From Siniperca chuatsi (lineage: Eukaryota > Chordata > Actinopteri > Centrarchiformes > Sinipercidae): a DNA stretch of 64,000 nt. Numbering within the stretch: the stretch's first letter is position 1; each line of letters opens with the position of its first letter. The position numbers and the translations under genes were made by a program. The stretch lies in the NCBI RefSeq assembly GCF_020085105.1, contig NC_058053.1, positions 18,126,388 to 18,190,387 on the forward strand. The letters are read 5' to 3'. A model generated the notes under the pieces. It saw only the letters and a list, made by a program, of their open reading frames with translations. It had not been told where the DNA came from and did not search any database. This document shows positions 32,821 through 36,732 of the stretch, piece by piece.

Positions 32821-35800
32821 TCATTGCAGGTCGAGGTATTGAGGCAGCACATCGTTCCAGAACTGCTGCGAGTCGTCTGGTTTCTTCTCTCCTGCAGCCC
32901 TCTGCTTAGTCCTCGGTGCTGGTTTGGGTGTTTCTCTCTTTTCTTTTCTGTCTGAAAGAGCAACTTCAGGAGGCAACTTCTGTGATTTGACCTTTTCCTC
33001 TTCCTCCTCATCTCCTTCCCTCTCTGCCTCACTCTCATTTTCCTCTTCAGCATGCTTCTCACTATGTTTGCCGTTTGCAGCCTTTCCTTTTTCCTCATTC
33101 TCCTCTTCTTCCTCCTCTTCTCCTTCGTTAGCCTCTTCCTCACTCTCCTCTTCATTTTCTTCAGAATCATTTCCTCTCTTTCCTTCAGTTCGTTCCTGTT
33201 TTCTTTCTTCTCTCTGATTATTGAGTCTTTTCTCTGTTTTTGGTTTAATTTTTGTATCATTCTCCTCTTCCTCATCTTCCTCTTCCTCCTCTTCTTCCTC
33301 ACCCCCTTCCTCCTCCTCCTCCTCCTCCCCCACCTCATCATCATCACTCTCTACCATCACTTTTTTATTAGCCTTCATACTTTTCTCTTTTCTCTTTATT
33401 TCTTCCTCCTCCTCACCTTCACTCCCGTCCTCTTCATCTTCTCCTTCCTCCTCTGCAACATCTTCCTCACCCTCTTCTTCCTCCTCCTCTATAACCTCCT
33501 CCTCACCCTCTTCTTCCTCCTCCTCTATAACGTCCTCCTCACCCTCTTCTTCCTCCTCCTCACCCTCTTCTTCAACTTCTCCCTCCTCCTCCTCCTCCTC
33601 CTCCTCATGTTTTTCTTCCTCCTCTGCAGTCTCTCCCTCAGCTTCCCCCTCATCCAAAGATGCTTCTTCCTCACCCTCTTCTTCCTCCTCCTCTATAACG
33701 TCCTCCTCACCCTCTTCTTCCTCCTCCTCACCCTCTTCTTCAACTTCTCCCTCCTCCTCCTCCTCATGTTTTTCTTCCTCCTCTGCAGTCTCTCCCTCAG
33801 CTTCCCCCTCATCCAAAGACGCTTCTTCCTCACCCTCTTCTTCTTCCTCCTCTGTAACCTCTTCCTCACCCTTTTCTTCCTCCTCCTCACTCTCTTCTTC
33901 CTCCTCCTCACTCTCTTCTTCCTCCTCCTCACTCTCTTCTTCCTCCTCCTCACCCTCTTCTTCAACTTCTCCCTCGTTCTCTTCCTCTTCCTCACCATGT
34001 TTTTCTTCCTCCTCTGCGGTCTCGTCCTCAGCTTCAACCTCATCTAAAGATGCATCTTCCTCACCCTCTTCTTCCTCCGCCTCATTTTCTTTATCACTTT
34101 TTCCATCTTGCTCTTCCTCCTCTTCATCAGCCTCACTGCCTTCCTCTTCCTCTTCATCATTTTCAACACTTGCTTCCTGTTTCTCATCTTCCTCTCCTTC
34201 ACTCCCATCTGTTTCTTCATCTTCTTTGGAGTTATTCTCCTCCTCCTCACTTTCGGTGGAATCTTGATCATCTTCAGTTTCACCCTCTTCCTCTACATCA
34301 ACCTCATTTTCTTCTTCTTCTCCTTCTTCGCTTTCTTCTTCAGAATCAGACTTTGCAGTCTCACTTCCCTCTCTGTCCTCCTCCTCCTCCTCCTCTTTGC
34401 TCTTGCTGCTCCCCGATTCTTCACCACTTTCATCTTCATCCTCACTTTCTTCCTTTTCTTCTATATTCTCTTCTTCACTAGACTCTTCACTTTCACTTTC
34501 CTCCTCCTCTGCTGCTTCACTTACCTCAGAGTCACTCCCTCCTTCACCTATTTCCTCACTGCTTTCTTCGTCCTCCTCTTCAGCCTCTGTAACATCACTC
34601 TTCTCACGTCCTTCATCTTCTTCCTCACTGCTGGAGCCTGTTTTCTCCTCACCATCTTCCTCTGTATCAGTATCTAATTCAGTATCTTGCTCTTCCTCAT
34701 CCTCTCCAGAAACACTCTCCTTTTCCTCGTCTACGTCATTGCTACTTTCACTTCGCTCCTCCTCGTCTTCTTCTTTGTCTTCCACATTGCTTCCACTGTC
34801 TTCCTCTTCATCTTCCTTCTTTTCCTCATCTTCAGTATCTGTTTCCTCATTATCCTCATCCTCTTCTGAAGGCTTATAGGTTTTCTCATCTTCATTTTCT
34901 TGCTCGGAAGTTTCCATGTCTGTGCCACTGTTCTTCCCCTCTGTTTGTGAAACGTCTTCCCCCCCGATCTGCTCGGACATGTCACTTTTCACCGCCCCCC
35001 GTTGTGACTGATGATGAATGGAATCTTTACTTTCTTCTTCTTGAACTGAATTCCCTGACTCTGACCGAACACTGAGCTGAAGAGCTTTTCTTTCTTCTGG
35101 CGGATTTGATGCTTCTGTTGAAGAAAAATGTGACAAAGTCGAGGAAAATGAAGGTCGCATAATTGCACTCTGCTTTGTGAATTGCTTCCCTCGACTGGGA
35201 GTTTTAGGTGGTGTAGAAGTAACTGTGTCACTGTCAAACTGGAAAGCCCCTGTGTTTGTCACTGCCTCACTAAGGACCTCCATAGCTGCACCTGCTATCC
35301 CAACAGCAGGAAGAAGAGAGGCTGCGGTACTGAGAATTTCCCCCCACCTTGGCTTTTCTTCTGTCTGGCCCTGAGCATCCTCTCTGTTTGTATCTGAAAC
35401 AAGCAGATCCCTATCAACAGGTTCAGGGCCTTGCAGGGATTTGGCACCACTGACGGAAACCACCTCTGTTCTCTTTGGGCTTTGTGAGGAAATGGGGTTA
35501 CACACCACTTCAGTAGGTGTATCCTGCTCCGATAACAGCGGGCGGGAAGCTTCAGTCTGCTTACTGCTCGGCTTGGCCTTCGTCTTATCTTTAGAGTCTA
35601 CATCAGCTTCTCCCTTAACTCTGATTTTGTCTCCTTCTTCTCCCCCTGGCTTTGTTTTTGCCTTCAGTTTAGATTCTTTTGCGTTCTTTTTGTCCTTCAC
35701 TTTAGAGCTGTCAGCATCAGGTATCTTCGGCTTATCTGCAGTTCTACCCTTCACTCTTTGAGCTGTGTTCTTGGCAAAGTTTAACTCATTTTCCACAACT

Positions 35801-36732
35801 TTTCCTTTGCTTTTACTTTGAGTATTTTCTGCACATTTACTTTGATTTTTGACTGGTGTGGATTTGACCTCTTGCAGTTTCGCTTTAACTTTCACAGGTG
35901 TAGATTTCACACTTAGGGATGTCTTAGTATCAACCTGAGCAGGTGTGGTTTCTTTTTTCACTGGTGGTGATTTTACATCCAGTGCTTTACTTTGACCTTT
36001 GCCCTGTGCAGATTTAACCAAATCCTTCGTTGGAGTCAATGTGACTCGCTGTGTCTCCGGTTGCATCACTTCAACAGGTTTGACGTCAGTGACTTTACTC
36101 TGGATGTCTGCATCTTCCTTTGCAGTGTTTTCTACGGATACTGAACTTCTACTTTGGACAGATATGCTGGTTATTTCATTTCCTCTAGAGACCTTAATAA
36201 CAGGAGACGTCTTGTCCAAAGCTGATGATATATTTTTCTTCTTTTCTGGTGTCCCTATCAAGTCTTTCTTTAAAGTGCTGGCTTTAATATCCTCTTGGTT
36301 TATATTGCTTTTCAAATGTATCTGTCTTCTGGCATTTTCCTTCACTTCAGTCAGTCTCTGCTGTGCTTCAGTCAGTGTCTTCCGGACAGATTGTGGAGGT
36401 TTTGGGCTCAATTCTGATAGTTTGCTCTTATCACGTTTTGGTGATTTAAAATGGGAGGGTTCCTTTCGAGCTTGTCTGTCTTCATGAGTTTTGATTTTAT
36501 TGGACTGCTTGGTAATGTTCTCTTTGCCTTTAGATGTGATTTGGGGTTTTTTCAGAGTCTTTGGGCTCTTCACTGGAGACACTTCTTTCCTTAAAGAGCT
36601 GGATTCTTTCAGGAGCTCTGTGGGTAAGGCTTTGTGAGAAATTTGTTCTGGCTTCCCATTGGATTGGAGCTGTTCGGCAAATGCCTCTGCCGCTTTCGCT
36701 GTTCTTCTAAGAGCTCGGCCCTTCTTCTTTTC
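32821..36732 (-). CDS. rpgr: rpgr terminal exon, ORF15 equivalent (1303 residues)
   Basis: One uninterrupted 3912-bp exon, residues 635-1937. First comes a basic, Lys/Ser/Thr-rich part (residues 635 to about 1050) with repeats of VKSTPVK-like words. A mixed linker follows. Next is an acidic tract (about 1242-1880): its upstream part alternates Ser with Asp/Glu ([12 protein letters not shown], many CK2-type sites) and its downstream part is Glu/Gly-rich with GEEEE words like those polyglutamylated by TTLL5 in mammalian RPGR. The last ~50 residues are basic again ([16 protein letters not shown]) and end [15 protein letters not shown], matching the conserved extreme C-terminus of the mammalian ORF15 isoform. 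Mammalian ORF15 is about 570 residues, so this exon is more than twice as long. The opposite strand shows long Ser/Leu/Phe-only ORFs that are compositional shadows. Confidence 0.93.
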   Translation of the reverse strand, partial: EKKKGRALRRTAKAAEAFAEQLQSNGKPEQISHKALPTELLKESSSLRKEVSPVKSPKTLKKPQITSKGKENITKQSNKIKTHEDRQARKEPSHFKSPKRDKSKLSELSPKPPQSVRKTLTEAQQRLTEVKENARRQIHLKSNINQEDIKASTLKKDLIGTPEKKKNISSALDKTSPVIKVSRGNEITSISVQSRSSVSVENTAKEDADIQSKVTDVKPVEVMQPETQRVTLTPTKDLVKSAQGKGQSKALDVKSPPVKKETTPAQVDTKTSLSVKSTPVKVKAKLQEVKSTPVKNQSKCAENTQSKSKGKVVENELNFAKNTAQRVKGRTADKPKIPDADSSKVKDKKNAKESKLKAKTKPGGEEGDKIRVKGEADVDSKDKTKAKPSSKQTEASRPLLSEQDTPTEVVCNPISSQSPKRTEVVSVSGAKSLQGPEPVDRDLLVSDTNREDAQGQTEEKPRWGEILSTAASLLPAVGIAGAAMEVLSEAVTNTGAFQFDSDTVTSTPPKTPSRGKQFTKQSAIMRPSFSSTLSHFSSTEASNPPEERKALQLSVRSESGNSVQEEESKDSIHHQSQRGAVKSDMSEQIGGEDVSQTEGKNSGTDMETSEQENEDEKTYKPSEEDEDNEETDTEDEEKKEDEEEDSGSNVEDKEEDEEERSESSNDVDEEKESVSGEDEEEQDTELDTDTEEDGEEKTGSSSEEEDEGREKSDVTEAEEEDEESSEEIGEGGSDSEVSEAAEEEESESEESSEEENIEEKEESEDEDESGEESGSSKSKEEEEEEDREGSETAKSDSEEESEEGEEEENEVDVEEEGETEDDQDSTESEEEENNSKEDEETDGSEGEEDEKQEASVENDEEEEEGSEADEEEEEQDGKSDKENEAEEEEGEEDASLDEVEAEDETAEEEEKHGEEEEENEGEVEEEGEEEEEESEEEEEESEEEEEESEEEEEKGEEEVTEEEEEEGEEEASLDEGEAEGETAEEEEKHEEEEEGEVEEEGEEEEEEGEEDVIEEEEEEGEEEASLDEGEAEGETAEEEEKHEEEEEEEEGEVEEEGEEEEEEGEEDVIEEEEEEGEEEVIEEEEEEGEEDVAEEEGEDEEDGSEGEEEEEIKRKEKSMKANKKVMVESDDDEVGEEEEEEEGGEEEEEEEEDEEEENDTKIKPKTEKRLNNQREERKQERTEGKRGNDSEENEEESEEEANEGEEEEEEENEEKGKAANGKHSEKHAEEENESEAEREGDEEEEEKVKSQKLPPEVALSDRKEKRETPKPAPRTKQRAAGEKKPDDSQQFWNDVLPQYLDLQ

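Follow-up and report, generated by a model that had tools for sequence, protein, structure and literature searches.

RPGR-ORF15 of mammals and frog ends in an exon that encodes a Glu-Gly repeat of variable length. According to Table 1 of PMC6770968, the ORF15 exon encodes 567 residues in human, 488 in mouse, and 679 in Xenopus, of which 351, 273, and 232, respectively, form the Glu-Gly core, and the Glu-Gly share of this repeat ranges from 72 to 88% across the seven species in that table, being 82-88% in human, mouse, and frog and 72% in dog. Human ORF15 attains 97.5% purine within 1 kb (PMC6770968). In mammals, docking of TTLL5 and glutamylation of RPGR are needed for transport through the connecting cilium (PMC9897430, PMC13052805), and a structure of the cofactor interaction domain of human TTLL5 with the C-terminal 27 residues of RPGR, which bind at about 0.4 µM, comes with a set of invariant RPGR residues, i.e., F1140, W1141, L1145, Y1148, and L1149 (PMC13052805, 2026). 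Contiguous human genes include OTC, RPGR, SRPX, and SYTL5 (PMC11241513). Among fish, zebrafish has rpgra, reported to comprise 13 exons, to encode 1,698 residues in just one transcript, of the ORF15 type, and to lie among the same neighbours as in mammals, and rpgrb, reported with two transcripts (PMC10282147). Here we describe a locus of Siniperca chuatsi, contained in a window of 64,000 nucleotides of contig NC_058053.1, which we read, with a probability of roughly 0.87, as the ORF15 exon, i.e., the retina-type last exon, of a fish rpgr, whose product would be docked by TTLL5 and glutamylated as in mammals.

Gene model and genomic context of rpgr

In the splice model built here, rpgr occupies 45437..32821 of the minus strand and consists of 13 exons encoding 1937 residues; all introns have gt-ag ends, every junction is in phase, and the single stop lies at the end. 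Exon 1 (45407..45437) opens with the start codon at 45437 and provides 10 residues. Exons 2 (44957-45082), 3 (44760-44852), 4 (43704-43766), 5 (43427-43585), 6 (43141-43290), 7 (42855-43013), 8 (41975-42130), 9 (41534-41658), and 10 (41088-41294), all likewise on the minus strand and together spanning 41088..45082, encode the RCC1-like domain and the first part of the linker. In a comparison with PDB sequences only, 363 query residues of the RCC1 region align with human RPGR 4jhp at an E value of 5.3e-157, the human RPGR structures 4jhp, 4qam, and 4jhn match at E 5e-157 to 2e-156, and the next protein is plant UVR8 at E 1.3e-58. Exon 11 (39347..39893, minus strand) encodes a Pro/Ser/Lys-rich linker, and Pfam reports no family for the ORF that holds it. 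Exon 12 (39136..39221, minus strand) ends in the donor ATG/gtgaga, which is the weakest call of the model. The coding part of the terminal ORF15-type exon 13 (32821..36732, minus strand) is preceded by the acceptor tttgttatag and comprises 1303 codons and a TGA; it joins the 12 upstream exons in phase, so that its first residue is protein residue 635, as the original prediction had implied, and its last is residue 1937.

OTC lies upstream of rpgr and is divergent from it, four plus-strand ORFs between 47774 and 49598 matching OTC models. A fifth ORF that was tried, 47237-47503, gave no match to them, and earlier OTC exons from about 46716 are suggested by eye only. Downstream of rpgr, three sushi exons and a HYR domain split over two exons are found at 12905-17546 on the minus strand and, beyond this gene, two C2-domain exons at 1640-4076 on the plus strand; by domain and place only, the two genes fit SRPX and SYTL5. 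The conserved neighbours of RPGR, i.e., SYTL5, SRPX, and OTC, are thereby represented in the window. Together they fit the block known from human. Because thirteen exons, one ORF15-type transcript, and mammal-shared neighbours characterize zebrafish rpgra, the gene is therefore rpgra-like, as judged by exon number and neighbours. Elsewhere in the window, two separate plus-strand ORFs at 55044-59743 match rhodopsin-family seven-helix receptors. A likeness to a tRNA-derived short repeat was noticed by eye downstream of rpgr at 32150-32245 on the minus strand; ARAGORN and Rfam both report nothing for this element.

The open frame of the terminal exon

Reading from 36732 to 32821 on the minus strand, the frame of the terminal exon stays open for all of its codons up to the TGA, whereas the two shifted frames contain 44 and 161 stops. 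The same holds for its parts: exon residues 1-600 have 0 stops in frame 0 and 30 and 49 in the shifted frames, and exon residues 601-1250 have 0 as compared to 14 and 110. The splice model, the RCC1 match, and this lack of stops support an rpgr with a long, open last coding exon of the ORF15 type, and its 1303 residues are 2.3 times the 567 listed for human in Table 1 of PMC6770968, in keeping with the original prediction of more than twice the mammalian length. The exon is purine-rich as well, with 72% overall and 87% in its best kb. The claim of a 3912-bp single terminal exon is exact for the open frame, but the 3912 nt cover the coding part only; words of the ATTAAA/AATAAA type are first encountered 88 and 382 nt past the stop, and the exon must extend into a 3' UTR.

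Purine richness could by itself keep a frame open, as a strand with few pyrimidines lacks stop codons, which contain T, and in that case the acidic frame would have no coding meaning. The strand reaches the 87% purine per kb given above, and its opposite also carries long mechanical ORFs of 353 and 349 residues. However, over residues 601-1250 the two other frames of this strand contain 14 and 110 stops, and no dinucleotide shuffle is open (0/2000 for residues 1-600 and 0/2000 for residues 601-1250), which indicates that the frame is not open merely through purine richness. Furthermore, between the two most similar of the imperfect tandem copies in the Glu-Gly-like core, the differences are a gap of 9 nt (a multiple of three) and one synonymous change. 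At the sequence level, an explanation by purine content only is strongly disfavoured, and we consider its chances negligible. The original prediction had also proposed that selection kept the frame; the stop counts, shuffles, and tandem copies are consistent with this, although a single genome cannot show selection. It seems improbable, too, that part of the exon is removed by splicing in the main transcript and that the long frame is a by-product. A donor-like site, GAG/GTAAGT, does occur at exon nt 2208 (34519-34527, minus strand) within the acidic tract, but applying a simple rule for pyrimidine tracts to the exon yields no acceptor-like site, frame 0 remains open throughout as opposed to 44 and 161 stops in the other frames, and the putative TTLL5 helix, which closes the coding part of the exon, is in-frame.

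By simple rules, two donor-like sites are present in the exon in all, the second being AAG/GTGAGG at exon nt 3316, and possible alternative splicing is suggested by them. The antisense ORFs, which are Leu/Phe- and Ser-rich and lie opposite the acidic tract at 32986-34267 on the plus strand, are a by-product of purine richness. When the stretch 20200-32818 was scanned for alternative C-termini with C-x-x-L/M/I/F/S/Q/A ends, 7 candidates were obtained; the nearest is, by eye, mismatched in frame to the donor-like site, and an isoform like that of exons 1-19, although possible, is not proposed.

Composition of the exon and its C-terminal end

The exon can be divided into a series of regions, all on the minus strand. 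A basic arm (exon residues 1-450, 35383..36732) is followed by a mixed linker of 150 residues (451-600), which contains one hydrophobic patch of 31 residues (463-493, 35254..35346) according to Kyte-Doolittle hydropathy. By composition, there follow an acidic Ser/Asp/Glu stretch of 285 residues (601-885, 34078..34932) with 42% Glu, 14% Ser, and 13% Asp, a Glu-Gly-like core (886-1110, 33403..34077), a mixed-charge stretch (1111-1250, 32983..33402), and a basic tail (1251-1288, 32869..32982) before the putative TTLL5-docking helix (1289-1303, 32824..32868). A basic half, an acidic half, and a basic tail had been foreseen and all of them are present, with a net charge of +40 in residues 1-450 and 382 D/E as compared to 48 K/R in residues 601-1250, but the tail is only weakly basic (11 K/R versus 9 D/E in the last 53 residues).

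The core has 76% Glu plus Gly over 225 residues, as compared to 58% over the 650 residues of the acidic region and 35% over the whole exon, and holds 13 of the 15 EEGE words of the exon; the word GEGE does not occur in residues 601-1250. Its share falls within the range of Table 1 of PMC6770968, under human, mouse, and frog and over dog. The size of the core depends on the threshold, being about 225 residues at a cut of 76% and 276 at a cut of 72%. It holds imperfect tandem copies, three of which, with 77, 53, and 56 codons, were cut out; the end of the third copy was set by hand, and the first, more divergent copy was left out of the count of differences given above. Since a core of about 225 residues is close to those of Xenopus and mouse (232 and 273, the human core having 351), the extra length does not come from a longer Glu-Gly repeat. 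An enlarged Glu-Gly tract, which the original prediction never put forward outright, is therefore not the source; judged from composition, the extra length is that of the basic arm (about 450 residues), the linker (150), and the Ser/Asp/Glu stretch (285), and the core appears not to be enlarged.

At the end of the protein, all five positions corresponding to the invariant residues F, W, L, Y, and L are kept within the last 15 residues. The sole PDB match of the tail up to E 10 is 9phh, with a modest phmmer E value of 0.083; it shares 9 of 15 residues with the RPGR moiety of 9phh, or 11 of 27 if the full peptide is counted. Identity by itself is not decisive, because a chance window elsewhere in the sequence, with stops in it, reaches 8/15 identities, and the claim therefore rests on position and on the five contacts. 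The pattern FW...L..YL occurs once in the six frames of the 64 kb, namely at the C-terminus encoded by rpgr. A single-sequence model predicts a helix at exon residues 1287-1299; counted back from the last residue, this is 16 to 4, very close to the 16 to 3 of the helix in the crystal. The single-sequence structure models have low confidence, with mean pLDDT of 55 and 67. The conserved C-terminus that had been anticipated is thus recovered, and, more exactly, it is best read as a putative TTLL5-docking helix, so that the end of the exon would represent a C-terminal basic domain with a TTLL5-binding helix, even if its basic charge is weak.

By analogy to mammals, the cofactor interaction domain of TTLL5 would dock on roughly 15 residues at the C-terminus, and the enzyme would add glutamate chains to the upstream Glu-rich core (residues about 886-1110). 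Glutamylated ciliary RPGR would then be competent for transport through the photoreceptor connecting cilium, as it is in mammals.

The basic arm and comparison with known RPGRs

The first 400 residues of the exon have a pI of 10.1. The repeated VKSTPVK words noted in the original prediction are present but form a weak repeat, with exactly two copies and one VKSPPVK. More conspicuous are S/T-P-x-K/R motifs, which resemble proline-directed kinase sites of microtubule-associated proteins. From exon 11 to residue 600 of exon 13 there are 11 of them, as compared to a mean of 2.6 in shuffles (0/5000 reaching 11), and 29 S/T-P as compared to 14.7 (0/5000 reaching this number), 7 and 13, respectively, being located in the basic arm itself; the pattern was picked after viewing the sequence, and the shuffles preserve composition only. 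The hydrophobic patch has a 19-residue Kyte-Doolittle maximum of 1.72, as opposed to 0.11 or less for windows starting outside 441-499, and a maximum of 1.72 is attained in 36/5000 shuffles that keep the composition of residues 1-600, which makes the patch unusual, not extreme. AlphaFold run without an alignment places two helices at the patch with a pLDDT of about 67, the mean of the piece being 55.

Any function of the basic arm or of the hydrophobic patch is speculative. Somewhat tentatively, the arm may be a disordered linker pairing with polyanions, its partner being either the acidic tract of the same protein or the glutamylated axoneme, a pairing that proline-directed kinases might switch off. 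That it is instead a phospho-regulated domain with a function of its own and not a passive linker, possibly specific to fish and binding microtubules or nucleic acid as the original prediction suggested, agrees with its pI and with the excess of S/T-P-x-K/R sites over shuffles, but Pfam is empty for the terminal exon at E 1 and residues 1-450 match a single PDB protein, an exonuclease, with an E value of 0.081, which is taken as chance; we regard such a domain as possible and rather doubtful. Residues 411-564 give no PDB match at E 10. Searches for these residues in prokaryote contigs (82 pattern matches, 0 relatives) and for residues 1-601 in viral contigs (16 pattern matches, 0 relatives) are uninformative on absence in vertebrates. 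Judging by titles and the beginnings of abstracts, none of the open-licence papers retrieved describes a basic arm in fish RPGR. A bolder proposal, unlikely at present, is that one exon joins some 450 residues of basic arm with dense proline-directed phosphosites, a short helical patch that binds membrane or a partner, and a glutamylation tract, and that in this fish lineage the arm, by its phosphorylation, and the tract, by its glutamylation, might act as opposing charge switches at the connecting cilium. The arm poses a question that fish models of X-linked retinitis pigmentosa could test.

RPGR is a human blindness gene, and the locus is an instance, from a fish, of fixed TTLL5 contacts in an exon most of which differs from mammals in length and make-up, in line with docking at the end mattering more than the length of the tract. 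The remainder of the locus is routine gene annotation. Human RPGR-ORF15, with 1152 residues, has the same RCC1-like domain and, in its last exon, the same order of acidic before basic regions, and its FWxxVLPxYLxL end binds TTLL5 (9PHH). Its exon has less than half the residues found here, as compared via published figures and not by alignment. In contrast to human RPGR-ORF15, about 600 residues, some 450 of them basic, precede the acidic tract in S. chuatsi, and this tract is rich in Ser and Asp besides Glu and has less Gly. ORF15 of Xenopus tropicalis is likewise longer than that of the mammals listed in Table 1 of PMC6770968; at 679 residues it has about half the length of the exon here, and its Glu-Gly share is 45% versus 35%, with cores of 232 versus about 225 residues. 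Zebrafish Rpgra likewise has 13 exons, an ORF15-type transcript, a very long protein, and mammal-shared neighbours (PMC10282147), and is 239 residues shorter than the model presented here. The locus of S. chuatsi adds one rpgr to the known long forms of fish and is, apart from one understudied region, an otherwise ordinary gene.
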